This document shows, piece after piece, positions 16,699 to 46,166 of a DNA stretch of 64,000 nucleotides. Both the position numbers and the translations under genes were made by a program. How positions within the stretch are numbered: position 1 is the stretch's first letter; every line of letters begins with the position of its first letter. The stretch comes from Halomonas sp. 1513 (GTDB taxonomy: Bacteria > Pseudomonadota > Gammaproteobacteria > Pseudomonadales > Halomonadaceae). The notes below the pieces were generated by a model. That model was not told the DNA's origin and did no database searches. It saw only the letters and a list, made by a program, of their open reading frames with translations. The stretch lies in NCBI GenBank assembly GCA_001971685.1, contig CP019326.1, positions 2,232,001-2,296,000 on the forward strand, written 5' to 3'.

Positions 16699-17841
16699 TC
16701 AAATGCGCCTCAACACTTCCATATATTTCGCGCCATAAGCCTCAAGAGAGAAATGTTCTTTTGCATACTCACGAGCAGCAATTTTAATTTCCATCACCTG
16801 GCTCGCATCACTCAAAAAGGAGACCAGCCGAGATGCCCACCCACTTTCGTCAAAGTTTGGCATCAACAATCCCGTGCGTTCATGCTCAATAATATCCGGA
16901 ACCCCTCCAGCACATGATGCTATCACAGGAAGTCCGGTCACCATTGCCTCTTGCACCGCATTAGGGACGCCTTCATTAAGTGAAGTAACGATTAAAGCAT
17001 GGCTTGCTTTCATTAACGCGTTGATATCATCGCGCCAACCCAAAAACTCCACTCTCCCTGCAAGGCCAAGGCTTTCTATCTCACAAATTAGTTTCTCATG
17101 ATAACTCGAATCATCAACCCCACCCACCATACTTAGCAAGAAATCCAATTCCGGATTTTGTTTGGCAATTTCCGCCATTACCCTAACTGCAAATAACTGG
17201 TTTTTCCTAGGATGCACCTTCCCAACATGCAAAAAACCAATGCGGGCATAGTTACACGATTGCGAACTGGTTGTACTAGGAGCATTTGAAGAAGTCTCGA
17301 TCCCTGGCGTGATATTGACAACCTTGCGACGTATCCCTTTGATTTGCTCTTTTGATAACTTCTCCTCAAGCACCGATGAATATTGGGTAACAATTAGACT
17401 TGATCGCTTCAGTGACACCTTTCTGGCCAAGTTCACCAAGGGGCTGGCCGGCAGCTCCAAGTCAATATCTAAAACGACTTTTTTCCCCGGAATAAAATAC
17501 GCTGCAAAATACACAAGCCCGCTCAAAGTGGACCTGAGAACAACCACTTTCCCATTAAGCTTTAGAACAAAAAAAAACAAATATGGCTGATATAAAAAAA
17601 CCATTAATATGTACAAGAGCTTCTTAACAAAGGAGCTTCCTGAGAACCCTCTTTCCAGCAAGGAAGGCCTCCATAGATACTTCATATCGACGCCTAGATG
17701 CTCTACATACTGGTTCACCTCATGGGCACGATGCGTTATGTAGCTAACTCCCTCATGATATTTTGAGAGTTCTGATGACAACATCGCTAAGCGTTTTGGC
17801 GCCCCAGTTTTACCAGAGCCTGAAAAAAATACACTAATCAT
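16699..17841 (-). CDS. Glycosyltransferase family 4
   Basis: A second GT4 enzyme (380 aa). The N-terminal GT-B lobe starts ISVFFSGSGKTGAPKR. The C-terminal lobe carries GFLHVGKVHPRKNQLFAV, HALIVTSLNEGVPNAVQEAM and GLPVIASCAGGVPDIIEHE, the typical donor-binding region. It lies 15 bases upstream of the next glycosyltransferase on the same strand and is A+T-rich compared with the flagellar genes. Donor and acceptor are unknown. Confidence 0.87.
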   Translation of the reverse strand: MISVFFSGSGKTGAPKRLAMLSSELSKYHEGVSYITHRAHEVNQYVEHLGVDMKYLWRPSLLERGFSGSSFVKKLLYILMVFLYQPYLFFFVLKLNGKVVVLRSTLSGLVYFAAYFIPGKKVVLDIDLELPASPLVNLARKVSLKRSSLIVTQYSSVLEEKLSKEQIKGIRRKVVNITPGIETSSNAPSTTSSQSCNYARIGFLHVGKVHPRKNQLFAVRVMAEIAKQNPELDFLLSMVGGVDDSSYHEKLICEIESLGLAGRVEFLGWRDDINALMKASHALIVTSLNEGVPNAVQEAMVTGLPVIASCAGGVPDIIEHERTGLLMPNFDESGWASRLVSFLSDASQVMEIKIAAREYAKEHFSLEAYGAKYMEVLRRI

Positions 17842-31763: not shown

Positions 31764-33880
31764 GCGTGACGCGACTTTCTCCTCTTACGACCTGGCTGAT
31801 GGGCCTTTCATTGAGCGCCGGCAGCGGCCTGGCGCTGGCCGCCGGCAGTGTGCCGGCGCAGAATCTTGGCCTGGGCAAGGGCCAGAGCGACTTTGGCGGC
31901 GTAGGGCTGATGCAGACCCCCACCGCCCGCATGGCGCCGTTTGGCAGCATGTCGGGATCGTTCAACCGCACCGCGCCCTACCGCCGCTATAACCTGTTCT
32001 TTCAGCCCGCCGAGTGGCTGGAGGGCGGGTTTCGCTATGTGCAGGTAGAAAACCGCACCTTTACAGCCGCTGGTGAAGGGACGCCCAACCTCGACAAGGG
32101 CGTGGATGCCAAGCTGCGGCTGTGGAACGAGAGCCGCTATCTGCCGGCGCTGGCAGTGGGCCTGCGCGATCTGGGTGGCACCACCCTGTTCGGCGCCGAG
32201 TACCTGGTGGCCAGCAAGCGCTGGCACGACCTGGATTTTTCGCTCGGCCTGGGCTGGGGCTATCTGGGCAACGAAGCCGACCTGCGTTCGCCGCTGGGCG
32301 TGCTCGACAGCCGCTTCGATGAGCGCCCCGGCGAGGCCGGCGGCGATCAGGGCGGCGAGTTTGCCGTCGATGCGCTGTTCCGCGGCTCGGCGGCAGTGTT
32401 CGGCGGGGTCGAGTACCAGACGCCCTGGGACCGGCTGCTGCTGCAGCTGGAGTACGAAGGCAACGACTACCAGAACGAGCCCCAGGACAACGATCAAGTG
32501 CGCGACTCGCGCGTCAACCTCGGCGCACGCTTCAAGCTCAGCGACGGCCTGGAGCTGCGCGCCGGCTGGCAGCGCGGCAACACCGCCATGGCCGGCATCG
32601 CCTATACCACCAACCTGGCGGGGCTCTCCCAGGCCAAGCGCGACCCGGCACCGGCGGCGCTGGACGCCGAGCCGCAGCCCGACTGGGCGAGCCTAGCCGA
32701 GGAGCTGGAGTTGAACGCCGGCTTGCGCGCCACGCGCATCAGCCAGGAGGGGCAGGACCTGATCGTCGAGGGCGAGCCAACCCGCTTCCGCGCACTGGCC
32801 CAGAGCGAGGGCCGCGCCGGTCGCCTGCTCCACGCCCAGACAGACGACGACGTGCAGCGGCTGCGCTACCGTTGGGAGAACCGCGGCATGTTCCTGCGCG
32901 AGAGCGTGCACGATCGCCAGGCACTCGTGGCGGCGGCCGGTTCCGCCGAACATGAGACCGCCCACAAGCACGGCATCTATCAGCATGCCCGGCTGACGCC
33001 TCCGGCGGCCGACGCCGAGACCCTCTACGAGGCGCCTACGCAGCGCCTGCAGTACAGCCTGGGGCCGGGCTTTCAGCAGAACTTCGGCGGGCCCGACGGC
33101 TACTTGTACCGGCTCTCGGCCGTGGCCAGCGCCGAATACGCCACCGACCGCAACGGCTGGTTCTCCGGCACGCTGACCTACACCCTGGCCGACAACCTCG
33201 ACAACTACGAGTACATCGCCGACTCCGACCTGCCGCGGGTGCGCACCTTCATCGGCGACTACCTCGCCGAGACCGACCTCGGCATCGACAACCTGCAGTA
33301 CACCCGCACCGCCCAGCTGGGCCGCAACTGGTATGCCATGGGCTACGGCGGGCTGCTGGAGATGATGTATGCCGGGGTCGGCGCAGAGCTGCTGTATCGC
33401 CCCTTCAACAGCCGCTGGGCGGTCGGTGCCGACCTTAACCGCGTGCAGCAGCGCGAGTTCGACCAGCGCTTCGGGCTACGTGACTACACCACGACCACCG
33501 GTCATCTGACCGCCTATGTGGAGACCGGCGTCGAGGACGTGCTGGCCAAGGTCAGCGTGGGCCGCTACCTGGCGGGTGACATCGGCACCACCATCGATCT
33601 GTCGCGGGAATTCGAGTCCGGCGTGCGGGTCGGCGCCTGGGCAACCTTTACAGATGCCGGCGACGATTTCGGCGAGGGCAGCTTCGACAAGGCGCTGTAT
33701 ATGTCACTGCCGCTGGACGCCTTCTTCATCCGCTCGACCCGCGACCGTGCCGATATCGCCTGGCAACCGCTGACCCGCGACGGCGGCGCGCGCCTCAACC
33801 GACGCTACTCGCTCTACGAGGTAACCGAGGAGCGACGGTTGAACGGCTACTGGGACGACTACGAGGCTAGCTGGCGGTGA
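31760..33880 (+). CDS. yjbH: YjbH/GfcD-family outer-membrane beta-barrel protein
   Basis: A 706-aa exported protein predicted to form an outer-membrane beta-barrel for polysaccharide secretion. The signal peptide ends about residue 30 (LSLSAGSGLALAAG). Family blocks include GGVGLMQTPTARMAPFGS near the N-terminus, RRYNLFFQPAEWLEGGFRY, and repeated alternating aromatic/polar strands to the end, with YSLYEVTEERRLNGYWDD near the C-terminus. The start is TTG at 31760 overlapping the yjbG stop, or GTG at 31766. It converges on hglS and overlaps it by 14 bases. Confidence 0.88.
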   Translation: MSVTRLSPLTTWLMGLSLSAGSGLALAAGSVPAQNLGLGKGQSDFGGVGLMQTPTARMAPFGSMSGSFNRTAPYRRYNLFFQPAEWLEGGFRYVQVENRTFTAAGEGTPNLDKGVDAKLRLWNESRYLPALAVGLRDLGGTTLFGAEYLVASKRWHDLDFSLGLGWGYLGNEADLRSPLGVLDSRFDERPGEAGGDQGGEFAVDALFRGSAAVFGGVEYQTPWDRLLLQLEYEGNDYQNEPQDNDQVRDSRVNLGARFKLSDGLELRAGWQRGNTAMAGIAYTTNLAGLSQAKRDPAPAALDAEPQPDWASLAEELELNAGLRATRISQEGQDLIVEGEPTRFRALAQSEGRAGRLLHAQTDDDVQRLRYRWENRGMFLRESVHDRQALVAAAGSAEHETAHKHGIYQHARLTPPAADAETLYEAPTQRLQYSLGPGFQQNFGGPDGYLYRLSAVASAEYATDRNGWFSGTLTYTLADNLDNYEYIADSDLPRVRTFIGDYLAETDLGIDNLQYTRTAQLGRNWYAMGYGGLLEMMYAGVGAELLYRPFNSRWAVGADLNRVQQREFDQRFGLRDYTTTTGHLTAYVETGVEDVLAKVSVGRYLAGDIGTTIDLSREFESGVRVGAWATFTDAGDDFGEGSFDKALYMSLPLDAFFIRSTRDRADIAWQPLTRDGGARLNRRYSLYEVTEERRLNGYWDDYEASWR

Positions 33881-35216
33881 GGGCTGCCAGCGCCCGCTCC
33901 AAGGAGGCCTGCTGGCGCCGCTCGTAGAGCGCGATCTCATCGGTGACCGCGGCGCCTAGTGCCTCTTCGAACAGCGCCTGGTTGGAGTGACTGGCGTATT
34001 CATCGCGCACGCCGTCGCCGAGGTTGGACTGGAAGATCCCCGCCGCGCTGACCGGCAGAAAGTCTTCGTAGGTCATCGCCGCGGCAGTCAGTGCGCCCTG
34101 CGCGATCAGCGCTTCCACGTCGTGTTCATCGCCCGCTGTCGCGCCGGGCACGGCACGGTAGTGGAAAAACGCCAGCTCCTCACGGCGCAGTACGGCGGGG
34201 TCGTCGGGGAAGTCGGCAAACACCTCGCTGAGCTGCGCCTGGTGGCTGGCGTTGTCGGCGGCGGGGTCGCCCTCCCGCGAGGCCTTCAGCAGCCGGTCGT
34301 AGAGCGCGCGCCCCTTGCGCGTCAGCGCCACGCCGCGCTGCTCGATCTCGCCGAAGCGGGCGGTGTGGTGGCCCTGCTCGTTGCCGGCGAAACGGATCGG
34401 CTCCTCCAGCGCCTTGAAGCTGGTCTGGCGCAGCAGGATCGGGCAGGCGCGGCGCGGCGGGCCTTCGATGATCGCCTTGGGGTCGATGCCTGCCTCGGGC
34501 ATGCGCTGCTGAACGGCGTCGATGTCCAGGGTGCGCGGCGTGAGGTGGTTGATATGCGGGCCGCGAAAGCACACCACGTCGGCGATCAGGCGGTGCTCGT
34601 CGCTCAGCGCGCGGTAGGTGGCCAGGTCGACGGTGGCCTCGCGATGCCAGCGGAAGGTCTCCAGCGCCTCGGCCACGAAGCGCTCGGCCTGCTCGGCATC
34701 GAGCCCACCCTGGCGCTCGGCGGTGGCGACCAGCTCCCGCGCGCCGGGGGTGAAGATATCGCGGGCGGCGAGGATCTCGGCAGCGCGCTGGCGCAGCTCG
34801 GCGTCCTCGATCAGCTCCAGGCGCAGCAGCGAGGTAAACACGCGGAACGGATTGCGCTTGAGCGCAGCGTCGTCCACCGGACGAAACGCCGTGGAGTGCA
34901 CCGGCACCCCGGCCTCCGAGAGGTCATAGTAGCCCACCGGGTGCATGCCCATCACCGCAAACAGGCGGCGCAGCATGGCCAGCTCATCCGGTGTGCCAAC
35001 GCGAATCGCACCGTGGCGCTCGACGTCGAGCCGCGCCAGCTCGTCACCGTCGCGCAGCTCGGCATGCAGCGTGGGGTTGGCTGCCAGCGTCTCGCGGTTG
35101 ACCGCCTCGACCAGCGCCAGCAGCGTGCCGTACTGCGGCACCTCATGGCGGTACATCTCCGACATCGCCTTGGCGAAGTTGCCGCGAATCTCGTCCGTGG
35201 CTATCCAGTTGCTCAT
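33867..35216 (-). CDS. hglS: HglS, 2-oxoadipate dioxygenase/decarboxylase (DUF1338, YdcJ-like)
   Basis: Fe(II)-dependent enzyme of the VOC-like DUF1338 family that converts 2-oxoadipate to 2-hydroxyglutarate in Pseudomonas lysine catabolism. 449 aa, the normal length. Conserved features include YDLSEAGVPVHSTAFRPVD (a metal-ligand His and substrate-binding Arg region) and CFRGPHINHLTPRTLDID with a second conserved His. AGGAGG six bases before the ATG at 35216 decides the start over an in-frame codon at 35249. It lies 54 bases downstream of a class III aminotransferase on the same strand; together they would turn 2-aminoadipate into 2-hydroxyglutarate. Confidence 0.87.
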   Translation of the reverse strand: MSNWIATDEIRGNFAKAMSEMYRHEVPQYGTLLALVEAVNRETLAANPTLHAELRDGDELARLDVERHGAIRVGTPDELAMLRRLFAVMGMHPVGYYDLSEAGVPVHSTAFRPVDDAALKRNPFRVFTSLLRLELIEDAELRQRAAEILAARDIFTPGARELVATAERQGGLDAEQAERFVAEALETFRWHREATVDLATYRALSDEHRLIADVVCFRGPHINHLTPRTLDIDAVQQRMPEAGIDPKAIIEGPPRRACPILLRQTSFKALEEPIRFAGNEQGHHTARFGEIEQRGVALTRKGRALYDRLLKASREGDPAADNASHQAQLSEVFADFPDDPAVLRREELAFFHYRAVPGATAGDEHDVEALIAQGALTAAAMTYEDFLPVSAAGIFQSNLGDGVRDEYASHSNQALFEEALGAAVTDEIALYERRQQASLERALAALTAS

Positions 35217-35270
35217 CTGGGCCTCCTGTGGCCGATATGTTCTTAGCATAGAAGGATCTGGGCCAGCGGC

Positions 35271-36524
35271 TCAGGCCGCCAGCGACTCGAGGGCACGTTC
35301 GAGAATCGCCAGGCCTTCGTCGAGCCGCTCGGCTTCGATGGTCAGCGGCATCAGCAGACGCAGCACGTTCTTGTGGCGTCCGCTGGGCATCAGCAGCAGG
35401 CCCTGCTCACGAGCCTTGACCAGTAGCGCGGCCAGGTGCTGGCTGCCGCTGGCCGCAGCGGTGTCGTGGAAGACGATGCCGCGCATGGCGCCGATGCCGG
35501 TCAGCTCACCCAGCATCGGGAAGCGGCCGCTCGCCTGCCAGCGCCGGTGCGCATCCACGATGGCCACCTCGATCCGCTCGCTCCACTCGCTCAGGCGCGA
35601 CTCGGCCATGATCTGCATCACCGCCCTGGCGGCGGCGCAGGCCACCGGGTTGCCGGAGTAGGTGCCGCCCAGCCCGCCCTTGGGCAGGGCGTTCATGATC
35701 ACTTCGCGCCCGGCCACCGCGGCCAGCGGCAGGCCGCCGGCGATACTCTTGCCCATCAGCAGCAGGTCGGGCTCGATGCCCAGGTGAGAGAAGGCGAAGC
35801 GCGTGCCGCTGCGGCCGAAGCCGGACTGGATCTCGTCGATGATCAGCACGATGCCGTGGCGGTCGCATTCGGCACGCAGCCGGGCGGCGAAGTCGCGGTC
35901 GAGCAGCCGGAAGCCGCCCTCGCCCTGCACCGGCTCGACGACGATGGCGGCCACTTCATCCGCTGGCACCTCGACCTCAAACAGGCGTGCCAATGCCGCC
36001 AGGCCCTGCTCGGCGCTGATGCCGCCGTCGCTGCTGGGGAACGGCAGGTGGTAGACAGGCCCCGGCAGCGCACCGAGCCGGCGCTTGTAGGGCGCGACCT
36101 TGCCGTTGAGGTTGAGCGCCGCCAGGGTGCGGCCGTGGAAGCCGTCATCGAAGGCGATCACCGCCTGGCGCCCGGTGTGCCCGCGCGCCACCTTGAGGGC
36201 GTTCTCGGTGGCCTCGGCACCGCTGTTGGTGAGCATGCAGCTCAGCGGGTAGCTGACCGGCACGAAGTCCTGCAGCGCCGCGACCACGTCCAGATAGCCG
36301 CGGTGCGGTACGGCGTTGAACGCCGAGTGGGTCAGCTTGGCGAGCTGCGCGCCAGCGGCTTCGACGATGACCGGATGGCAGTGCCCGAGGTTGAGCACGC
36401 CGATGCCGCCGACGAAATCGATATAGCGCCGCCCCTGCTCGTCCCACACCTCGGCATTGCGGCCCTGCTCCACACAGATGGGGTGCACCACGCCCATCGA
36501 CTCGCTGACAAAGGGTAACTCCAT
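35271..36524 (-). CDS. Class III aminotransferase (GabT-like; probable 2-aminoadipate aminotransferase)
   Basis: A PLP enzyme of 417 aa from ATG 36524. Elements of the ornithine/GABA aminotransferase subgroup are clear: NSGAEATENALKVARGHTGR, FDDGFHGRTLAALNLNGKV, LIIDEIQSGFGRSGTRFAF with the PLP Asp, and LLMGKSIAGGLPLAAVAG with the catalytic Lys. By sequence it would be named 4-aminobutyrate transaminase. The adjacent hglS and the amaA/amaB genes suggest 2-aminoadipate as substrate, as for the P. putida enzyme of this class. An in-frame codon at 36551 is an alternative start. Confidence 0.85.
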   Translation of the reverse strand: MELPFVSESMGVVHPICVEQGRNAEVWDEQGRRYIDFVGGIGVLNLGHCHPVIVEAAGAQLAKLTHSAFNAVPHRGYLDVVAALQDFVPVSYPLSCMLTNSGAEATENALKVARGHTGRQAVIAFDDGFHGRTLAALNLNGKVAPYKRRLGALPGPVYHLPFPSSDGGISAEQGLAALARLFEVEVPADEVAAIVVEPVQGEGGFRLLDRDFAARLRAECDRHGIVLIIDEIQSGFGRSGTRFAFSHLGIEPDLLLMGKSIAGGLPLAAVAGREVIMNALPKGGLGGTYSGNPVACAAARAVMQIMAESRLSEWSERIEVAIVDAHRRWQASGRFPMLGELTGIGAMRGIVFHDTAAASGSQHLAALLVKAREQGLLLMPSGRHKNVLRLLMPLTIEAERLDEGLAILERALESLAA

Positions 36525-36831
36525 GCCCTCTCCATCCTCCTGCTGCGGCATTCACTCGTGCCGCTATCAGAGCAGAGCCCGCCCCACGTCTCAAACGAAA
36601 AAAAGCGCGCTATGCATTCCGTTTATTCAAGGTGATACCGGCGTCAGGCCTGCCGCAGACACCATCAGCACCAGGCAGGAAAAAATGGAATACAAAGGAG
36701 ACTAAATTTCTTTTGCCTGATATGCCGCGGGCGACAACAATGGCCGCCCAACAGTGGATCCGGGCCAACCACCGCGAAGACGGTAGGCGCCACGGCATAC
36801 AACAACCACAGGCAAGTGAACAGGAGACGAC

Positions 36832-37833
36832 ATGAAGCGCGTAATTCCCCTGGCAACACTCGGCGCTGCGGCAGGCGCTCTGCTGGCCGGTTGCGGCAGC
36901 GACGGCACCAGCACACCGAACATCGCCATCGGCCCGCCGGCCAGCACTACCCAGAGCGTGTCGCAGCTGATCTTCGACGCCTACGGCATTGGCGAAGACG
37001 ACTACAGCACCTATCAGGAAGGCTTCGGCGCGGCCCTCGACGGCGTGCAGGATGGCAACATCGATATCTCCATCGGCATTCTCGGCCTGCCCTCGGGCAG
37101 CATCGAGAACCTGCAGGCCTCGAGCGGCGATGCCCGCATGCTGAGCCTCAGCGATGACGCTATCGACTACATCGAGGCCAACAGCGACTACCAGCGCTTC
37201 ACCATTCCCAGCGACAGCTACGAGTTCCTCGACGAGGACGTCACCACCATCACCGCCTACGCCATCCTGATGGGCAACACCCATACCATCGATGAAGAGC
37301 TGGGCTATGAGCTGGCACGCCTGATGGTCGAACACGCCGAGGAGAACACCCACTCCCAGTCGGCGTTCATGACCCTCGAGAACGCCCTCAACGGCGCCGA
37401 CGACCTGCCGATCCACCCCGGCGCCAAGCGCTACTACGAGGAGCAGGGCCTGACCGTCGACAACCCGGTGGCCGAGCTCGGCGAGGTCGAAGAGAAGCGC
37501 GAGTTCATCCTCGGCACCGGTAGCCAGGGCGGCACCTACTACCCGCTGGGTGGCGAGATGGCGACCATCTGGAACCGCTACCTGGACGACGCCAACTTCA
37601 CCAACATCGAGACCGGCGCCTCGATCGAGAACATGGTCAGCATCCGCGATGGCAGCATGGACCTGGGCATGACGGTGCACGCGCCGGCTCGCGAGGCCGT
37701 GGAAGGCCGCGGCGAGTTCGACGGTGGCCAGGTCGAGAACGCGGCCTTCATCGGCCACATCTACCCCGAGGTGATTCAGATCGTGACCCGTGAGCGTTCG
37801 GGCATCACGTCGCTCGACGAGATCGGCAACTGA
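36832..37833 (+). CDS. TAXI-family TRAP solute-binding protein with circularly permuted order
   Basis: A 333-aa exported lipoprotein; lipobox LLAGC places the lipid Cys at residue 21. It is clearly related to TAXI-TRAP binding proteins, but the halves are swapped. Residues about 31-207 (from IAIGPPASTTQSVSQLIFDA to PIHPGAKRYYEEQGL) are what is normally the C-terminal part. Residues about 223-333 (from REFILGTGSQGGTYYPLGGE to VTRERSGITSLDEIGN) are what normally follows the signal peptide. Both halves look complete and the cut is at the first lobe-crossing strand. A short linker (TVDNPVAELGEVEEK) joins the old ends. GAGGAGAC... spacing supports the ATG. A hairpin and the fused TRAP permease follow. 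Confidence 0.9.
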   Translation: MKRVIPLATLGAAAGALLAGCGSDGTSTPNIAIGPPASTTQSVSQLIFDAYGIGEDDYSTYQEGFGAALDGVQDGNIDISIGILGLPSGSIENLQASSGDARMLSLSDDAIDYIEANSDYQRFTIPSDSYEFLDEDVTTITAYAILMGNTHTIDEELGYELARLMVEHAEENTHSQSAFMTLENALNGADDLPIHPGAKRYYEEQGLTVDNPVAELGEVEEKREFILGTGSQGGTYYPLGGEMATIWNRYLDDANFTNIETGASIENMVSIRDGSMDLGMTVHAPAREAVEGRGEFDGGQVENAAFIGHIYPEVIQIVTRERSGITSLDEIGN

Positions 37834-37849
37834 TCCGTTCTTCACGATC

Positions 37850-37874
37850 GCTGCCGGGCACCGCGCCCGGCAGC
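37850..37874 (+). terminator. Intercistronic hairpin between TAXI binding protein and permease
   Basis: Perfect 10-bp stem GCTGCCGGGC/GCCCGGCAGC with a 5-base loop, 16 bases after the stop of the binding-protein gene. Only a short T-run follows (CCTGTTTCT). Such hairpins commonly protect or attenuate the message so that more binding protein than permease is made. Confidence 0.6.
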
Positions 37875-37895: not shown

Positions 37896-39838
37896 GTGGT
37901 TAAAAAAAAACCGCTGACGACGCATCACTGCTAGAAAAGTACGACCGCGAATCCAATACGCGCACCGAGCTCGGCAAGTGGGGCTGGCTGGTGACGCTGA
38001 TGGGTATCACACTCACCTGCTTTCACCTGTATACCGGCTACTTCGGCACCCTGCCCTCCCAGCAGCAGGGCGCGGTCCATCTGGGCCTGGCGCTGGGCAT
38101 GATCTTCATCCTGTTTCCTGCTACCCGCGGCGGCAGCCGCCAGCACGTTCCCTGGTACGACGTGATACTCGCCTTCGTGGCCACCTTCACCGCCTACTAC
38201 AAGATCCTCTTCTACGAGGAGGTGTTGCGCGCCCGGGTCACCGGCTATTCGAGCTTCGACCTCACCATCGCGGCGCTGGGCGTGCTGTTCGTCCTCGAGG
38301 CGACCCGCCGTACCGTGGGCATCCCCATCGTGATCATGGCCAGCTGCGCGATCCTCTACGCACTGTTCGGCAATCTGATTCCCAGCCAGATTCTCTCCCA
38401 TCCCGGGTTCTCCTTTACCCAGGTCTCGCCCTACCTGTGGTTCCGTGAAAGCGGGGTGTTCGGTACGCCGCTACAGATTTCGGCGCGCTTTATCTTCCTG
38501 TTCCTGTTCTTCGGCGTGGTGCTGATGCACACCGGCGTGGGGCGCTTCTTCAATGACTTGGCCTTTGCAATGACGGGCCGCTTTACCGGTGGTGCCGGCA
38601 AGGCCGCGGTGATGGCCAGCTCCTTTCAGGGCATGATCTCGGGCAGCTCGATCGGCAACACCGTGGCCTCGGGCTCGTTCACCATTCCGATGATGAAGAA
38701 CGCCCGCTTCAAGCCGGAGGTGGCCGGCGCCGCCGAGGCCTCGGCCTCCACCGGCGGCCAGATCATGCCGCCGCTGATGGGGGCGGCGGCCTTCATCATG
38801 GTCGAGTACGTCGGGGTGTCATACCGCGAAATCATGGTCTCGGCGCTGATCCCGGCGCTGCTCTACTTCGCCGGTATTTTCATCGGCGTGCACTTCGAGG
38901 CCAAGCGCCACCGCATCCTCGGCATGCCCAAGGATCAGCTACCCAGCAAGCGCAGGCTGATGCTGGAGAAGGGCTATATGCTTCTGCCGCTGCTGGTTAT
39001 CGTCGGCACCATCATGGTGGGCTTCACCGCCCAGCGCGCCGCCCTACTGGGGATCGCCTGCGCCTTTGCGGTCAGCCTGATCCGCAAGGAGACACGCCCG
39101 TCGTTGCGCAAGGTGCTGACGATCTTCGAGCAGGGCGCGCGGGTGGCACTGCCGGTGATCGCCGCCGTGGCGTGCGCCGGAATCATTGCCGGCGTGGTGG
39201 GCATGACCGGCCTCGGCTCGAAGTTCGCTTCCGGCATCATCAGCCTCGCCGACGGCGTGCTGATCCTCGCCCTGCTGTTCACCATGGTGGCCTGCATCGT
39301 GCTGGGCATGGGGCTGCCGACTACCGCCAACTATGTGGTCACCGCCACCATCGCCGCCCCGGCGCTGATCAACGAGTTCGGCCTGCCGCCCATGGCGGTG
39401 CATCTGTTCGTGTTCTATTTCGGGATTATCGCCGATATCACGCCGCCGGTTTGCCTGGCCGCCTTTGCCGGTGCCGGTATTGCCCGTGCTAATCCGATGA
39501 AGACCGGCTTTACCGCCGTCAAGCTGGCCATCGGCGCCTTCATCATTCCCTACGCCTTCATCTTCAACCCGATGCTGGTGATGGTCGATGTGACGCCGCT
39601 GGGACTGGCAAGCGCGGTGCTGTTCTCGTTGCTGGGTATCATGGGGGTCAGTAGCGGGTTGATCGGCTACTTCGTGCGGGATTCCCTGCCCTGGGAGCGT
39701 CTGGTAATGTTGGCCGCTGGCCTGGCCATGGTGGTACCGGAACTGCTGACCAGCGGGGCCGGGCTGATCGCCATGGCCTTGATCGGCTGGCTGCAGCAGC
39801 GGCGGCCGGATAGCGGCGCCCTCAAGCCCGCCACATGA
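37896..39838 (+). CDS. Fused TRAP permease (DctQM-type), out of frame at an A9 tract near its start
   Basis: Membrane part of the TAXI-TRAP transporter: fused small and large permease subunits with about 16-18 helices. Signature segments are MASSFQGMISGSSIGNTVAS, ASASTGGQIMPPLMGAAAF and ACIVLGMGLPTTANYVVTA. The open frame begins at GTG 37991, but that cuts the first helix. The natural start is GTG 37896, preceded by GCGAGG. From there the frame runs through A9 (37902-37910) and stops at 37932. One extra A would give KKKTADDASLLEKYDRESN leading straight into the permease. Length from 37991 is 615 aa. It is followed by a LysR gene. Confidence 0.85.
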
Positions 39839-39856
39839 GCCAATCACCGCCTCTCA

Positions 39857-39888
39857 GGCCACTCCGGCGCCAACGCGCCGGAGTGGCC
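39857..39888 (+). terminator. Strong hairpin between TRAP permease and LysR gene
   Basis: Perfect 14-bp GC-rich stem (GGCCACTCCGGCGC/GCGCCGGAGTGGCC) with loop CAAC, 19 bases after the permease stop. No T-run follows. Its position inside the longest possible LysR frame argues that the LysR protein starts after it. Confidence 0.55.
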
Positions 39889-39912
39889 GGCCAGCACTCC
39901 GGAGCACCGCGC

Positions 39913-40803
39913 TTGGCGTCTCGCAACCTTCCCTCCACCACCGCCATGCAGTGCTTCGAGGCCGCCGCGCGGCACAAGAGCTTCACTCGCGCCGCTGAGG
40001 CCCTGAGCCTGACCCAGAGCGCGGTGAGCAAGCAGGTCGCGCAGTTGGAAGCCCACCTGCAGCACAAGCTGTTTCGCCGCGTGCGACGCAGCCTGGTGCT
40101 GACGCCGGAGGGCGCGATCTACCTCAGCGACGTGCGCAAGGTGCTGGCGCAGATCGAGATGTCGACCCACGCCATCATGACCTACAGCGGCAACAGCGAG
40201 GTGCTCAAGGTGGCGACCCTGCCGAGCTTCGGCACGCGCTGGCTGGCCGACCGGCTGCCGGCGTTCCTGGCCGCCAACCCGCGCATCAGCCTGGAATTCC
40301 ACGACCGCGTCGAGGACTTCGACCTCGAGCAGCAGAACATCGACGTGGCGTTTTTCTACGGCCACGGCAGCTGGCCCGACCTTGAGTGCCACAAGCTTGC
40401 CGACGAGGAGATGGTCGCCGTGGCCGCCCCGGCGCTGCTGTCAGCCCGCGCGCCGGCTTCGGCCAGCGACCTCACCGAGCTGCCGCTGCTGCACCTCTCG
40501 ACCCGCCCCGACGCCTGGCACCAGTGGTTCGCCGAGCAGCACATCGGCACCGACCGCAGCTACCACGGCACCCGCTTCGAGACCTTCCCGATGCTGGTGC
40601 GCACCGCCATGGCCGGCGGCGGCGTGGCGCTGGTGCCACGTTTCACGGTCGACGAGGAGCTCGATAGCGGGCGCCTCGCCGTTGCCGCCCCCCACCGCCT
40701 GCGCAGCGCCAGCGCCTACTACCTCGTCTACCCCGAACACCTCGGCGAACTGGCCAAGGTGCGACGCTTCGTCGAGCATATCCTCAGCACGTTGCCGGCG
40801 TAG
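39913..40803 (+). CDS. LysR-family transcriptional regulator
   Basis: Activator/repressor-type DNA-binding protein of about 296 aa. The winged helix-turn-helix is at the N-terminus (SFTRAAEALSLTQSAVSKQV), followed by the periplasmic-binding-fold effector domain (VLKVATLPSFGTRWL to the end). I prefer the TTG at 39913, which has CGGAG 8 bases upstream and lies after a strong hairpin. An ATG at 39835, overlapping the permease stop, would add 26 non-family residues. It is closely similar to the LysR protein encoded tail-to-tail at 40784-41698. It probably regulates the TRAP genes or the lysine route. Confidence 0.88.
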   Translation: MASRNLPSTTAMQCFEAAARHKSFTRAAEALSLTQSAVSKQVAQLEAHLQHKLFRRVRRSLVLTPEGAIYLSDVRKVLAQIEMSTHAIMTYSGNSEVLKVATLPSFGTRWLADRLPAFLAANPRISLEFHDRVEDFDLEQQNIDVAFFYGHGSWPDLECHKLADEEMVAVAAPALLSARAPASASDLTELPLLHLSTRPDAWHQWFAEQHIGTDRSYHGTRFETFPMLVRTAMAGGGVALVPRFTVDEELDSGRLAVAAPHRLRSASAYYLVYPEHLGELAKVRRFVEHILSTLPA

Positions 40804-41698
40804 CCGCCGGTGCTGCGATTCGCTCACCGATCCAGTCGATGAACGAGCGCACCTTGTAGAGCTCGGCCATGTGCTCGGGATACGCCATGTAGTAGCTATC
40901 GCGACTGGTCAGGGCAAACGGCCAGGGCATCACCAGCTTGCCCTCCTGAAGTTCCTCTTCGGCCAAGAACCGTGGTACCAGCGCCACGCCACACCCTGCC
41001 TGAGCCGCGCGCAGCGCCATGTAGAAAGTATCGAAGCGCGGCCCGTGGTAGCTGTGCTCGGTGTACTGCTGTTGGGCCTCGAACCAGTCGTGCCAGGCTT
41101 CCGGCCGCGTTGCGCTCTGCAGCAGCACCAGCTGGGTCACATCCAGCGGACGCTCGATCGTGACACGCTGCAACGCCTGAGGGGAGCACACCGCCACCAT
41201 CTCTTCATCGAGCAGCTTGACGCATTCGGCCCGCGGCCAGGCGCCGTGACCGAAGAAGAACGCCACGTCGATACGCTCCTGCTGCAGGTCGAAGGGCTCG
41301 ACCCGGTTGCTGATGTTGAGGTTGATCTGCGGGTAGCGAAAACGGAAGCCGTTTAGGCGCGGGATCAGCCAGCGCGCACCGAAGGTCGGCAGGGTCGCCA
41401 CATTGAGCACATCGCTCTCACCGCCATAGGACTGCATGTAGCGCGTCGACATCTCGACCTGGGCGAGGATCTTGCGCGCCTCGCTGAGGTAGACGGCGCC
41501 CTCCGGCGTGAGATGCAAGCGGCGGCGGATACGCCGGAACAGCGGATGCTCGAGTACCGATTCGAGCTGGGCTACCTGCTTGCTCACCGCGCTCTGGGTC
41601 AAGCTCAGTTCGGCAGCGGCGCGGGTAAAGCTGAGATGCCGGGCGGCGGCCTCGAAACACTGCAGGCCGGCCAGGGAAGGGAGATGGCGGCGATTCAT
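40784..41698 (-). CDS. LysR-family transcriptional regulator
   Basis: A 304-aa regulator with an N-terminal winged helix-turn-helix (SFTRAAAELSLTQSAVSKQV) and a C-terminal effector-binding domain. GGAGG just before the ATG at 41698 supports this start; an ATG at 41716 is possible. It is divergent from amaB with about 125 bases between them, the standard position for a LysR regulator of the adjacent catabolic genes. Its 3' end overlaps that of the plus-strand LysR gene by 20 bases. The two proteins share many blocks, such as DVAFFFGHGAWP versus DVAFFYGHGSWP. Confidence 0.9.
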   Translation of the reverse strand: MNRRHLPSLAGLQCFEAAARHLSFTRAAAELSLTQSAVSKQVAQLESVLEHPLFRRIRRRLHLTPEGAVYLSEARKILAQVEMSTRYMQSYGGESDVLNVATLPTFGARWLIPRLNGFRFRYPQINLNISNRVEPFDLQQERIDVAFFFGHGAWPRAECVKLLDEEMVAVCSPQALQRVTIERPLDVTQLVLLQSATRPEAWHDWFEAQQQYTEHSYHGPRFDTFYMALRAAQAGCGVALVPRFLAEEELQEGKLVMPWPFALTSRDSYYMAYPEHMAELYKVRSFIDWIGERIAAPAATPATC

Positions 41699-41822
41699 TG
41701 GGCCTCCACAGGTCATGAAAATAGGGAATGATATCTATATTAAACATCGTTTGCCGGTGCCTAACCATGCTGGTGATACTCGATTCAGGCTTTTGCACTC
41801 AACGACAATGATAGGAGCAAGA

Positions 41823-43316
41823 ATGATCGACGATATCATGCAGCGCCTTGGCGTCAGCGCCGATGCCTACCGTGACGGCAATCTGGCCGTCACCACCCCC
41901 ATCGACGGCAGCGTCATTGGCCGTGTCCAATCGGCCTCAGCCAGTGAGGTCGAGGCGCAGATCGCGGCCGCCGAGGCCGCCTTCCTTGCCTGGCGCGAGG
42001 TACCGGCCCCGCGCCGCGGCGAGCTGGTACGCCTGTTCGGCGAACAGCTGCGCGCTCACAAGGATGACTTGGGGGCACTGGTGACCTGGGAGTGCGGCAA
42101 GATCCTCCAGGAGGGGCTGGGCGAGGTGCAGGAGATGATCGATATCTGCGATCTCGCCGTGGGCCAGTCGCGCCAGCTGTTCGGCCTGACCATCGCCTCC
42201 GAGCGACCCGGTCACCATATGCGCGAGAGCTGGCACCCGCTGGGGCCGGTGGGGCTGATCACCGCGTTCAACTTCCCGGTGGCGCCCTGGGCCTGGAATG
42301 CCGCTCTGGCACTGGTGTGTGGCAACAGTCTGCTGTGGAAGCCTTCCGAGAAGACCCCGCTGACCGCCCTGGCCTGCCAGGCGCTGCTCGAGCGCGCCAT
42401 GGTCGACTTTGGCGACGAGGCTCCACAGGGCCTGAGCCAGGTGATCATCGGCGAGCGCGAGGCCGGCGAGCAGATGGTCGATGACCCTCGGGTGCCTCTG
42501 GTCAGTGCCACCGGCAGTACCCGCATGGGCCGCGAGGTAGGGCCACGGGTCGCCGCGCGCTTTGGGCGCAGCATCCTCGAGCTGGGCGGCAACAACGCCA
42601 TGATCCTGGCACCCAGTGCCGATCTCGACATGGCCACCCGCGCCATCCTGTTCTCGGCGGTAGGCACCGCGGGGCAGCGCTGCACCACGCTGCGCCGGCT
42701 GATCGTCCATGAGTCGATCAAGGACGAGGTGGTCTCGCGGCTCAAGAAGGCCTATGCCGGGGTCTCCATCGGCAATCCGCTGGAAGGCAAGCTGGTCGGG
42801 CCACTGATCGACCAGCAGGCCTTCGATGCCATGCAGGGCGTACTCGCCAAGGCCCGCGACCAGGGCGCACCGGTGTTTGGCGGCGAGCGCCAACTGAGCG
42901 ATACCCACCCCGAGGGCTACTACGTGTCGCCGGCCATCGTCGAGATGCGCGAGCAAAATGACCTGGTCAGGCACGAGACCTTTGCGCCGATTCTCTACGT
43001 CATGAGCTACCGCGAGCTGGATGAGGCCATTGCCCTCAACAACGACGTGCCCCAGGGGCTGTCGTCGTGCATCTTCACCACCGACGTGCGCGAGGCAGAG
43101 ACCTTCGTCTCGGATACAGGCAGCGACTGCGGTATCGCCAACGTCAATATCGGTCCCAGCGGCGCCGAGATCGGCGGCGCCTTCGGCGGCGAGAAAGAGA
43201 CCGGCGGCGGCCGCGAGTCGGGCTCCGATGTCTGGAAGACCTACATGCGTCGTCAGACCAACACCGTCAACTACTCCCGCGAACTGCCGCTGGCACAGGG
43301 GATCAAGTTCGACTAA
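41823..43316 (+). CDS. amaB: AmaB-type piperideine-6-carboxylate / aminoadipate semialdehyde dehydrogenase
   Basis: NAD(P)-dependent aldehyde dehydrogenase of the ALDH7 type (497 aa). It oxidises L-aminoadipate semialdehyde (in equilibrium with piperideine-6-carboxylate) to 2-aminoadipate. The general-base Glu253 is in LELGGNNA and the catalytic Cys287 in GTAGQRCTT; ITAFNFPVAPWAWNAALAL and LWKPSEKTPLTALA match the family. AGGAG ten bases upstream supports ATG 41823; longer frames run into the LysR gene. It heads an operon with an NhaC-type antiporter and the pipecolate-oxidase-like AmaA, which fixes the likely pathway. Confidence 0.9.
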   Translation: MIDDIMQRLGVSADAYRDGNLAVTTPIDGSVIGRVQSASASEVEAQIAAAEAAFLAWREVPAPRRGELVRLFGEQLRAHKDDLGALVTWECGKILQEGLGEVQEMIDICDLAVGQSRQLFGLTIASERPGHHMRESWHPLGPVGLITAFNFPVAPWAWNAALALVCGNSLLWKPSEKTPLTALACQALLERAMVDFGDEAPQGLSQVIIGEREAGEQMVDDPRVPLVSATGSTRMGREVGPRVAARFGRSILELGGNNAMILAPSADLDMATRAILFSAVGTAGQRCTTLRRLIVHESIKDEVVSRLKKAYAGVSIGNPLEGKLVGPLIDQQAFDAMQGVLAKARDQGAPVFGGERQLSDTHPEGYYVSPAIVEMREQNDLVRHETFAPILYVMSYRELDEAIALNNDVPQGLSSCIFTTDVREAETFVSDTGSDCGIANVNIGPSGAEIGGAFGGEKETGGGRESGSDVWKTYMRRQTNTVNYSRELPLAQGIKFD

Positions 43317-43389: not shown

Positions 43390-44856
43390 ATGCATGACGA
43401 CATTCGTATCGGCCCGCCTCCCGGGCTGCTGATGGCGCTGTTGCCGCTGCTGGTCACCACCGCGGTACTGATTCTGCAATTCTTCGTCTTCGCTGACTTT
43501 ACGCCGCACATCCCGCTGGCCTGCGGCATCATGGTCTGCGCCTTCTTCGGCCGCCTGCGCGGCATCCGCTGGACCGAGATGGAAGCCTCGATGCTCGAGG
43601 TGGTCAAGATCGGCATTCCGGCGATCTTCATCCTCATGGCAGTGGGCATGGTGATCGGGACCTGGATCCTGTCCGGCACGGTGCCGATGCTGATCTATTA
43701 CGGTTTCCAGATGATCTCGCCGTCTGTGTTCCTGGTCGCTACCTGCCTAATCAGCGCGCTGGTCTCGCTGGCTACCGGCACTTCCTGGGGCACCGTTGGC
43801 ACCCTGGGCATCGCGCTAATGGGCATTGGCGAGGGACTCGGCATCCCCATGTACCTGACCGGCGGTGCGCTGGTCTCGGGTGCTTTCTTCGGCGACAAGA
43901 TGTCGCCCCTGTCTGAGACGACGAATCTGACCCCGGCGGTATGTGAAACCGACCTGTGGAGCCATATCAAGAGCATGATGGCCACCACCGTGCCGGCCAT
44001 CGTGATTTCGCTGATCCTCTATGCCTGGCTGGGTGCCGGTTACGCCGACCAGTTGGAACGCACCACCGATATCACTACCTTCCGCAACACCCTGGCGGAT
44101 ACCTTTAGCCTGTCGTGGATCACCATGATCCCACCGGTGGTGGTGATCGGCATGGCACTGGCCAAGCTGCCGCCCTTCCCCACCATCTTCACCGGCGCGG
44201 CGCTCGGCGGCCTGGTAGCCATCGGCATCCAGGGCGAGAGCCTGCACACCGTGTTCGATGTGATGCAGAACGGCTACACCAGCGATACCGGCAGCGGCGC
44301 CATCGACGAGCTATTGAGCAGCGGCGGCGTGCTGTCGATGACCTGGGTGGTCAAGCTGACCTTCTTCGCGCTGGGCTTCGCCGGCATGCTCGAGGCCTAC
44401 GGCACCATTGACGCCATCATCCAGCGTTTGATGCGCCTGATACGCGGCCGCTTCAGCCTGGTAGCGACCAGTTCGGGGACCACGCTGGCGGTGAGCACTA
44501 TCATCGGTGACGTCTACACCACGCTGGTGCTGCCCGGCCGTCTGCTCAAGGGCCAATACCAGGCGATGGGCTACAAGACCACCACGCTGTCGCGCGCTAT
44601 CGAGGACAACGGCACGCTCTCCTCACCGTTGATTCCATGGAACATGGGCGGTGGTTTCGTGGCCTCGACCATCGGCGTGCCGACCCTGGTCTATGCACCG
44701 TTCGCCTTCGCTTGCTGGCTATCGCCGCTGTTCGGTCTGCTGTGGGGGCTAACCGGCCACTTCATCCCGCGCGAAACGGATCCGCAGCAGGCTCAGAACA
44801 CAACCGATGCATCGGGCGATACCGCCTATACGCCGGCCAGCGGCCATTCATCCTGA
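43390..44856 (+). CDS. NhaC-family Na+/H+ antiporter-like transporter
   Basis: A 488-aa polytopic inner-membrane protein with about 11-12 helices. Family blocks include SLATGTSWGTVGTLGIALMG, GGALVSGAFFGDKMSPLSET and AIEDNGTLSSPLIPWNMGG, typical of NhaC antiporters. AAGGAGGC-type sequence (AAGGAAGGCACCTC) precedes the ATG. Its position between amaB and amaA suggests it may take up the amino-acid substrate of this operon rather than serve general pH control; that is inference from context only. Confidence 0.85.
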   Translation: MHDDIRIGPPPGLLMALLPLLVTTAVLILQFFVFADFTPHIPLACGIMVCAFFGRLRGIRWTEMEASMLEVVKIGIPAIFILMAVGMVIGTWILSGTVPMLIYYGFQMISPSVFLVATCLISALVSLATGTSWGTVGTLGIALMGIGEGLGIPMYLTGGALVSGAFFGDKMSPLSETTNLTPAVCETDLWSHIKSMMATTVPAIVISLILYAWLGAGYADQLERTTDITTFRNTLADTFSLSWITMIPPVVVIGMALAKLPPFPTIFTGAALGGLVAIGIQGESLHTVFDVMQNGYTSDTGSGAIDELLSSGGVLSMTWVVKLTFFALGFAGMLEAYGTIDAIIQRLMRLIRGRFSLVATSSGTTLAVSTIIGDVYTTLVLPGRLLKGQYQAMGYKTTTLSRAIEDNGTLSSPLIPWNMGGGFVASTIGVPTLVYAPFAFACWLSPLFGLLWGLTGHFIPRETDPQQAQNTTDASGDTAYTPASGHSS

Positions 44857-44882
44857 TAGCACCGCGGCAAGGAGAGACCGGA

Positions 44883-46166
44883 ATGCAAACACGCTGCCTG
44901 TGGGAGACCACTGCCCGCGAAACAGCGCCGCCAACGACGACCCTGGAGGAGGCCATCGAGACTCGGGTGTGCATCGTGGGGGCCGGGATCACCGGCCTCA
45001 GCACCGCCCTGCATCTTGCCGAGCTGGGTATCGATAGCGTACTGCTCGAGGCCGGCGAGTCGGTGGCCAGCGGCGGCTCGGGACGCAATGTTGGCCTGGT
45101 CAACGCCGGGCTATGGATCCCGCCGGACGATATCGTCGAGGCGCTGGGCAAGGCCGACGGCGAACGTGTCAATCAGATACTCGGCGCCGCACCGGCGGCG
45201 GTGTTCGACATCATCGAGCGCTACGCCATCGACTGCAGCGCAACGCGGACCGGCACCCTGCACCTGGGCCACAGCACCAAGGGCTGCAGTGAACTGGCGC
45301 GACGCCACGACCAGCTCGCCTCACGCGGCGCCCCGGTAACGCTGGTCGAGGATGAGGCATGTCATGCGCTTACCGGCACCACTCGAATCCAGGCGGCACT
45401 GCTCGACGAGCGGGCCGGCACGCTCAACCCGGCCGCCTATACCCGCGGCCTGGCGCGTGCCGCCGCGGAGCAAGGTGCGCGTCTGTTCACCTACAGCGCC
45501 GCCACCGGCATTGCCCGCCACGGCGACCGCTGGCGGGTGTCCACCGCACGTGGCGCGGTAACCGCAGACCGGGTGGTGCTGGCCACCAACGCCTACACCT
45601 GCGACGAGTGGAACTACGTCAAGCGCCATTTCTTCCCCGGGCACTTCTTCCAGGTCGCCTCACAGCCGCTTGAGGGCGACGCCGCCGAACGCATTCTGCC
45701 GCAGCGCCAGGGCGCCTGGGACACGCGCATGGTGCTCAGCAGCATCCGCCGTGATGACCAGGGGCGGCTGATCCTTGGCAGCCTGGGCCGGGGGGAAGGT
45801 CGCCCGAAGGCCTATCTCGAGCAGTGGGCCAATCGCATCCAGCGCTGCTACTTCCCCGACCTTGGCAAGGTCGAGTGGCAAACCTCCTGGACCGGGCGCA
45901 TCGGGTTCACCCCCGACCACACCCTGCGCCTGTTCGAACCCCAGCCGGGCATTCTCGCTGCCAGCGGCTACAACGGCCGCGGCCTCACCACCGGCAGCGT
46001 GGTCGGCAAGGGCTTCGCCCACTATATCGCCCATGACGACGATGCCCTGCTACCGCTACCGCTCAAGCGTCACACTCCGGTCAGCGCACGACGGCTGAGG
46101 AGCGCCGCTTATGAAAGTGGCTTCACGCTATACCACGCTGGACAGTGTCTGCGCGTGGTGACCTGA
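44883..46166 (+). CDS. amaA: AmaA-type FAD-dependent L-pipecolate oxidase
   Basis: A 427-aa DAO-superfamily flavoenzyme expected to oxidise L-pipecolate to piperideine-6-carboxylate, which AmaB then uses. The FAD-binding motif VGAGITGLSTALHLAELG lies at residues 32-49, with GSGRNVGLVNAG after it. The second flavin region, ILAASGYNGRGLTTGS, is near the C-terminus. AAGGAGAG upstream of ATG 44883 decides the start; longer frames lie in the nhaC-like gene. The last 20 residues (SGFTLYHAGQCLRVVT) are unusual but in frame. A hairpin follows. Confidence 0.85.
   Translation: MQTRCLWETTARETAPPTTTLEEAIETRVCIVGAGITGLSTALHLAELGIDSVLLEAGESVASGGSGRNVGLVNAGLWIPPDDIVEALGKADGERVNQILGAAPAAVFDIIERYAIDCSATRTGTLHLGHSTKGCSELARRHDQLASRGAPVTLVEDEACHALTGTTRIQAALLDERAGTLNPAAYTRGLARAAAEQGARLFTYSAATGIARHGDRWRVSTARGAVTADRVVLATNAYTCDEWNYVKRHFFPGHFFQVASQPLEGDAAERILPQRQGAWDTRMVLSSIRRDDQGRLILGSLGRGEGRPKAYLEQWANRIQRCYFPDLGKVEWQTSWTGRIGFTPDHTLRLFEPQPGILAASGYNGRGLTTGSVVGKGFAHYIAHDDDALLPLPLKRHTPVSARRLRSAAYESGFTLYHAGQCLRVVT

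Follow-up and report, generated by a model that had tools for sequence, protein, structure and literature searches.

A circularly permuted TAXI-family TRAP receptor in Halomonas, probably derived once within Bacillota

The 64,000-nucleotide stretch of Halomonas sp. 1513 analysed here (contig CP019326.1, positions 2,232,001 to 2,296,000; the whole of it is the window in what follows) encodes cpTAXI, a lipoprotein in which the two parts of a TAXI-family TRAP solute-binding protein (SBP) stand in swapped order. We put at about 90% the probability that cpTAXI is a working TAXI-type receptor that arose by a single permutation in a Bacillota ancestor, within its own SBP-permease operon. The permutation, its conservation, the single clade, the shared partner and the shared pocket positions are read from sequence and the fold from prediction, and we infer the ligand, the transport and the duplication-deletion route. 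The parts of the gene are as follows, in window coordinates.

36832..37833, forward strand: cpTAXI, circularly permuted TAXI-family TRAP solute-binding lipoprotein, 333 amino acids (open reading frame and profile matches)
36832..36894, forward strand: lipoprotein signal with the lipobox LLAGC and Cys21 (by eye and by regular expression)
36895..36918, forward strand: short leash, from Cys21 to the first strand of lobe 2
36919..37452, forward strand: formerly C-terminal TAXI part, residues 30-207 (most of lobe 2, the second hinge and the end of lobe 1)
37453..37497, forward strand: new internal linker, residues 208-222 (TVDNPVAEL...), between the former C and N termini
37498..37830, forward strand: formerly N-terminal TAXI part, residues 223-333 (the start of lobe 1, the first hinge and the first helix of lobe 2)

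Both curated profiles of the family recognise cpTAXI, and both do so in two stretches: it scores 206.4 bits against PF16868 (cut-off 27), the best stretch placing residues 30-206 on profile positions 113-289 of 289, and 207.7 bits against TIGR02122 (cut-off 84.35), with residues 31-206 on positions 144-320 of 320. In a profile search of the whole genome, its order on PF16868 is 113-289 first and then 1-114; of the ten other rows from that genome, eight (L001-L008) run unbroken along the profile, starting at 1-5 and ending at 287-289, a weaker one spans 9-286, and one below the cut-off covers 23-166. The normal-order controls L108 and P0230 gave a single stretch over PF16868 1-289, and P0230, P0264 and P0122 a single stretch reaching TIGR02122 position 320, against two stretches in all four permuted proteins. 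Every solved chain listed (seven, E up to 10) matches cpTAXI in two stretches, and the order is swapped in all three printed structure alignments: residues 5-115 of 8s4j correspond to cpTAXI 225-331, and 119-298 to 30-207. PF16868 is the sole Pfam family found for the protein in a scan to E 1. cpTAXI therefore lies above the curated score cut-offs without following the collinear N-to-C profile order, which is typical of TAXI proteins and stands outside the curators' score; as its matches form two stretches in swapped order, it would be filed as a permuted descendant of the family. A preliminary description of this DNA, made from the sequence alone, had proposed exactly such a swap of TAXI halves and had divided the protein into residues 22-207 and 223-333: the profiles place this division correctly to within a few residues, and no collinear match to the whole protein emerged. 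Family naming by total profile score hides rearrangements of this kind, and many such proteins carry plain TAXI subunit names in source databases.

The permuted order is not confined to one genome. The best 120 of 561 protein matches to cpTAXI are all permuted, and of 68 loci in named genomes, 62 are collinear with cpTAXI (Halomonadaceae, many Bacillales and one record labelled Pseudomonas) and six have the normal order. Within Halomonadaceae, where the preliminary description had suggested looking for the same arrangement, 30 of 275 genomes carry it, the window's own counted, and it extends beyond them into Bacillales. Its view of the permutation as complete and natural is borne out by these relatives, and the ratio of nonsynonymous to synonymous substitution rates between cpTAXI and seven Halomonadaceae copies is 0.05-0.23. 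That an assembly misjoin or annotation error conceals a gene in normal order is a practically negligible prospect: the exact cpTAXI sequence occurs on one contig only (P0001) among the matches listed, but nothing was found in favour of a misjoin, and the swapped order recurs across the 62 loci, one of them (L070) on a complete chromosome, that of Halomonas socia. We rejected a misjoin because independent genomes carry the same order.

A wider survey by full-span matches found seven among 398 genomes in the class of a Salipaludibacillus (G285), all at E 1e-165 or better; two among 398 in the window's phylum, namely the window's own genome and one other of Halomonadaceae; and none among 198 in the phylum of a Nesterenkonia (G289). 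No second, independent permutation was seen among these 398, 398 and 198 genomes, in a scan that mostly scored five or ten candidates per genome with a limit of E 1e-30 and could miss weaker cases. A permuted-profile search of 16 genomes gave full-span matches in 11 (12 in total), all other matches being part-length.

Where did the permuted gene come from? In trees for which the two halves of the receptor were aligned apart and then joined, permuted proteins are nested among normal-order TAXI proteins. The 28 permuted rows of a 57-row tree form one clade (100/98) beside the normal-order L106, L108 and P0230. In 82-row trees, whose bootstrap was not fully settled, 36 permuted rows form one clade at 100/99 under both LG+G4 and a C20 posterior mean site frequency (PMSF) model, with L106 and P0264 as the nearest normal rows (81/90 and 85/87); together they sit within a wider group that takes in further normal-order rows (100/95 and 95/100). 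Taken half by half, the closest normal row is L106, L108 or P0230 for 27 of 28 N halves and 20 of 28 C halves, mean identities of each permuted half to these three are 54-63%, and the C-half tree recovers the permuted clade at 96 with the same three as sisters. The adjacent permease, itself unpermuted, repeats this pattern: in a 46-row tree, 34 partners of permuted receptors form one clade (100/99), joined first by L121/L122 and then by L123, the loci of the normal-order L106-L108. Normal genes (L121-L123) and permuted ones (L124, L125) alike have a class III aminotransferase and an RpiR-like regulator nearby, in varying arrangement, the family scans of neighbours covering L122 and L124. Because the half comparisons, the permease tree and the neighbours agree, the permutation most likely happened in place, once, within the SBP-permease operon, in Bacillota.

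The fold seems to have survived the rearrangement, as the preliminary description had thought possible. A predicted structure of cpTAXI (pLDDT 87) shows the helices and strands of a normal sister in rotated order, and by this prediction the two-lobed clamp is kept. The chain would run from lobe 2 through the second hinge and the end of lobe 1 to an ordered linker, and on through the start of lobe 1 and the first hinge to the last helix of lobe 2. The published domain limits of VcGluP put the hinge at 116-131 and lobe 2 at 132-254 (passages of PMC11574862). Mapped by hand onto VcGluP, the cut lies near residue 144, about 12-15 residues past the hinge and within lobe 2, in the stretch that separates its first helix from its first strand; the earlier placement at the first lobe crossover is therefore not exact. 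Foldseek against the PDB ranks the TAXI entry 9ibp in its top two rows (about 200 columns, TMq 0.45), followed in the rows listed by other binding proteins and related folds (TMq 0.31-0.43), and in a structure comparison of the model the top row is the betaine-binding OpuAC, a likeness of fold and chain order. By analogy with the family, the clamp would close around its ligand, which would then pass to the fused TRAP permease of the neighbouring gene.

Pocket positions also tie the permuted proteins to their sisters. We mapped 14 VcGluP sites by hand onto 87 permuted rows and three aligned normal-order sisters, and at ten of them (S40, V44, Y45, S75, Q93, H123, E125, D157, Y200 and G203) a single identical residue occupies all 87 rows and all three sisters: S, T, Y, S, V, Y, E, T, G and G, in that order. 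The sites Y46, S94 and M201 vary in some rows. Tyr236, Ser264 and Glu313 of cpTAXI match VcGluP Tyr45, Ser75 and Glu125.

Several observations weigh against the account of a single in-place permutation of a working receptor. At the site of VcGluP Gly156, whose main chain is described as contacting the ligand, the three sisters have Gly and 84 of the 87 permuted rows have Glu (57), Thr (20) or Ala (7); the key VcGluP residues Gln93 and Tyr200 are replaced by Val282 and Gly82 in cpTAXI. The catabolic neighbours discussed below differ in the Bacillota relatives, where the ligand may differ too. The N-half tree is weak, its quick version needing two changes and its careful version reaching 84/95 without a resolved sister group, and eight of 28 C halves are closest by raw identity to normal-order rows other than L106, L108 and P0230. 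These last two points would also suit a fission-fusion, in which two TAXI paralogues each contributed one half to a chain of new order. We consider that improbable: nearly all N halves and most C halves are closest to the same small group, which the C-half tree also sets beside the permuted clade; the partner permease has the same sister group; and the pocket positions of both halves fit one subfamily. Fusion of different paralogues is accordingly disfavoured by the half-by-half comparison and by the permease tree.

A permutation in place could have begun with a tandem duplication of the TAXI gene. Copy 1 would then have lost its leash and N half behind its signal peptide, copy 2 its signal peptide and C half, and the leash of copy 2 would have become the new internal linker. 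Such a route fits the anatomy, and we keep it as an inference because a look for a tandem intermediate among the best 120 of 730 matches brought none to light, all of them being of 378 amino acids or fewer. The early-branching permuted proteins L066, L067 and P0115 have an ancestral-looking GSGTQ or ASGTQ loop beside the new N terminus, where many other permuted proteins have ASETN or ASTTQ.

Halomonadaceae appear to have gained the permuted gene by transfer, since their three rows form one clade (100/100 in the 57-row and the 82-row LG+G4 trees, 100/99 under C20 PMSF) and, mainly, because the named normal-order sisters are Bacillota. Nesting of the Halomonadaceae copies within those of Bacillota is not decisive, with p values of the approximately unbiased test of 0.181 for the receptor and 0.046 for the permease. 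The record labelled Pseudomonas sp. Q2-TVG4-2 (L027) has a Halomonadaceae-type locus, with the A9 run and the HglS and transaminase neighbours described below, and is either a case of transfer or a mislabelled genome. Oceanobacillus damuensis carries two permuted copies (L033, L035), each with its own permease.

The permutation also changes the attachment to the membrane. The lipid-bearing Cys21 is invariant in 31 of 31 aligned rows, and with the N terminus displaced by the cut, the anchor is now tied through a short leash to lobe 2, where normal relatives have a long leash to lobe 1. From that Cys to the first core residue, 120 permuted proteins have a median of 6 residues (interquartile range 5-7, range 4-24), against 32 (24-39, 5-65) in 126 normal relatives, two more of which lack a lipobox by the pattern used; these rows are related by descent and are not independent points, so a p value computed from them overstates its case. 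The early-branching permuted L066, L067, L100, L104 and P0115 already have 5-10 residues, and 33 further normal rows have 15-38. We tentatively suggest, as possible rather than probable, that the permutation was kept as a re-anchoring that fixes which way the clamp faces the TRAP permease, and that in Halomonadaceae a hairpin and a programmed slip on a run of nine A's (A9), described below, additionally meter the permease below the receptor. If the re-anchoring is real, these proteins are a natural test of which lobe must stay free during delivery. There is, in our estimation, an even chance that the permutation is instead structurally neutral, fixed once by drift, the change of anchor having no effect on the working of the protein. 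Most pocket sites and the partner are unchanged, and TpMglB-2, a permuted ABC receptor, still binds glucose and changes shape on binding, as reported in passages of PMC4990184; yet a purely neutral N terminus might be expected to drift in length, whereas nearly all permuted rows, early branches included, have a short leash.

Compared with known TAXI-TRAP receptors, TtGluBP (TTHA1157; 1US4, 8U79) and VcGluP (8S4J), cpTAXI has the same sequence family, TRAP partner, several pocket residues and a predicted two-lobed fold, but differs in chain order, in its anchor and leash, and in the two replaced pocket residues. The normal-order Bacillota sisters (L106-L108, P0230, P0264) represent its unpermuted parent subfamily, and a fused TRAP permease adjoins them at L121-L123. 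Permuted receptors are already known from ABC transporters. The glycine-betaine receptor OpuAC (2B4L), set against 1R9L and 1SW1 (ProX by the citing paper's reference list), is one precedent, but this is an ABC transporter family, at 11% identity, and cpTAXI matched neither an OpuAC-type nor a type I sugar-binding family in the Pfam scan. TpMglB-2 (Tp0684) of Treponema pallidum, of the proposed 'Cluster Bc', is likewise a natural circular permutation in a membrane-tethered binding protein, and its authors, too, bring up tethering as a possible cause (passages of PMC4990184). It has a type I sugar-binding ABC fold, however, and its permuted part is given there as 13% identical to its counterpart, far from the values for the cpTAXI halves. 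BP0403 TAXI-GltS is another TAXI protein of unusual architecture, but with extra N-terminal domains and GltS as its partner (passages of PMC12344293); the word stem 'permut' is absent from the main text of that paper. We found no permutation described in TAXI or other TRAP receptors in the open-licence literature, a scope that leaves out most subscription papers; within it, the preliminary description's statement that it knew of none in this family holds, and the TRAP case has no precedent that we found.

The case is a natural permutation that can be compared with a still recognisable unpermuted parent lineage, with the same partner gene and related neighbours, in a type of transporter receptor whose docking to the permease is poorly understood. 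Comparing permuted and unpermuted forms could reveal the roles of anchor position, lobe order and partner docking in TRAP transport, and the cut site, already tested by nature, could be used for TAXI-based sensors.

A second feature of the locus concerns the start of the permease gene.

37850..37874, forward strand: predicted intercistronic hairpin, with a 10-bp stem, between the cpTAXI and permease genes
37896..37910, forward strand: GTG start (37896), then the A9 run 37902-37910, out of frame with the permease
37904..39838, forward strand: TRAP fused permease reading frame after the A9 run (TIGR02123, 695.5 bits; in the list of open reading frames it begins no earlier than 37991)

The permease frame contains no ATG, GTG or TTG from its in-frame TAA at 37901 up to the conserved LLEKYDRES. 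The GTG at 37896 has a Shine-Dalgarno-like stretch by eye and is in a different frame. The same out-of-frame run stands in 23 of 26 proteobacterial loci (the window, L009-L032 and L070); L012 has ten A's and the permease in frame, and L028 and L031 have an in-frame ATG without the run. In each of the 51 remaining loci where a permease is in reach, an ATG, GTG or TTG stands in frame (L100 and L124 are the same place). The window holds two A9 runs, against 0.03 expected; the other (17569-17577) lies as T9 inside a glycosyltransferase-like open reading frame (16699-17841, reverse strand; function judged by eye).

Programmed slippage or frameshifting at the run is likely, and phase variation is a possibility, given the ten A's of L012. 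On the assumption that translation starts at the ATG or GTG immediately preceding the run, the shift as read by hand has the same sense in 22 of 23 loci and the opposite sense in L020, where an assembly indel is possible; because of this other sense, L020 would speak for transcriptional slippage over ribosomal -1 shifting. Slippage on runs of nine A's is described in bacteria (passages of PMC5009743 and PMC1088944). A hairpin with a stem of at least eight pairs is predicted in all 26 folded loci (the same set, folded without a shuffle control), and its sequence differs among loci while the stem is kept. Hairpin and A9 together could keep the permease below receptor levels. The word TRAP is absent from the main text of the GeneTack paper, and no title or abstract among those listed for such runs could be seen to deal with TRAP permeases.

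The genes around the pair point to a possible substrate.

33867..35249, reverse strand: HglS, 2-oxoadipate dioxygenase/decarboxylase (732 bits, cut-off 550)
35271..36551, reverse strand: 2-aminoadipate transaminase (738 bits, cut-off 650)
39835..40803, forward strand: LysR-type regulator (GcvA-like, under that model's cut-off)
40784..41716, reverse strand: second LysR-type regulator (GcvA-like)
41811..43316, forward strand: L-piperidine-6-carboxylate (P6C) dehydrogenase (821 bits, cut-off 730; start chosen by hand)
43390..44856, forward strand: NhaC-type antiporter (429 bits, cut-off 370)
44883..46166, forward strand: L-pipecolate oxidase AmaA (670 bits, cut-off 600, obtained with the longer open reading frame 44637-46166; start chosen by hand)

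HglS and the transaminase thus flank the cpTAXI-permease pair on one side, and the P6C dehydrogenase, the antiporter and the pipecolate oxidase on the other, the enzymes and the antiporter all scoring above their NCBIfam cut-offs. One branch of lysine catabolism runs from L-pipecolate through P6C, 2-aminoadipate and 2-oxoadipate to 2-hydroxyglutarate. Because the adjacent genes encode their catabolism, L-2-aminoadipate or L-pipecolate would be the most likely ligand in Halomonas, taken up for this lysine branch. Of 25 other proteobacterial copies, 24 have at least one of HglS, the transaminase and the dehydrogenase nearby. Around the Bacillota copies L033-L069, BLAST did not find HglS, AmaA or the P6C dehydrogenase; L035 and L047 have only distant aminotransferases, and L124 and L125 have dehydrogenases nearby at 36-39% identity.

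There is a considerable, if somewhat less than even, chance that the Halomonas ligand is instead another amino acid, such as glutamate or lysine, or an osmolyte. VcGluP and TtGluBP bind glutamate, according to passages of PMC11574862; three VcGluP pocket residues have their match in cpTAXI, as given above, and the structure comparison is headed by a betaine-binding protein, though for fold and chain order. Since the equivalents of Gln93 and Tyr200 are replaced, however, glutamate specificity would not be implied, and Val and Gly at these sites suggest a roomier pocket; the Halomonas cluster, moreover, encodes four enzymes of the branch that starts at pipecolate and passes through 2-oxoadipate. 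In the open-licence literature we found no paper joining pipecolate, aminoadipate and a TRAP transporter.

A fused TRAP permease lies next to the cpTAXI-type gene in 61 of the 62 permuted loci. At L042 (4370-5368), no TRAP permease was found alongside the permuted TAXI gene, whose neighbours are an FAD-dependent oxidoreductase on one side and a GGDEF-EAL protein on the other; the same organism has a second copy, L052, with a permease.
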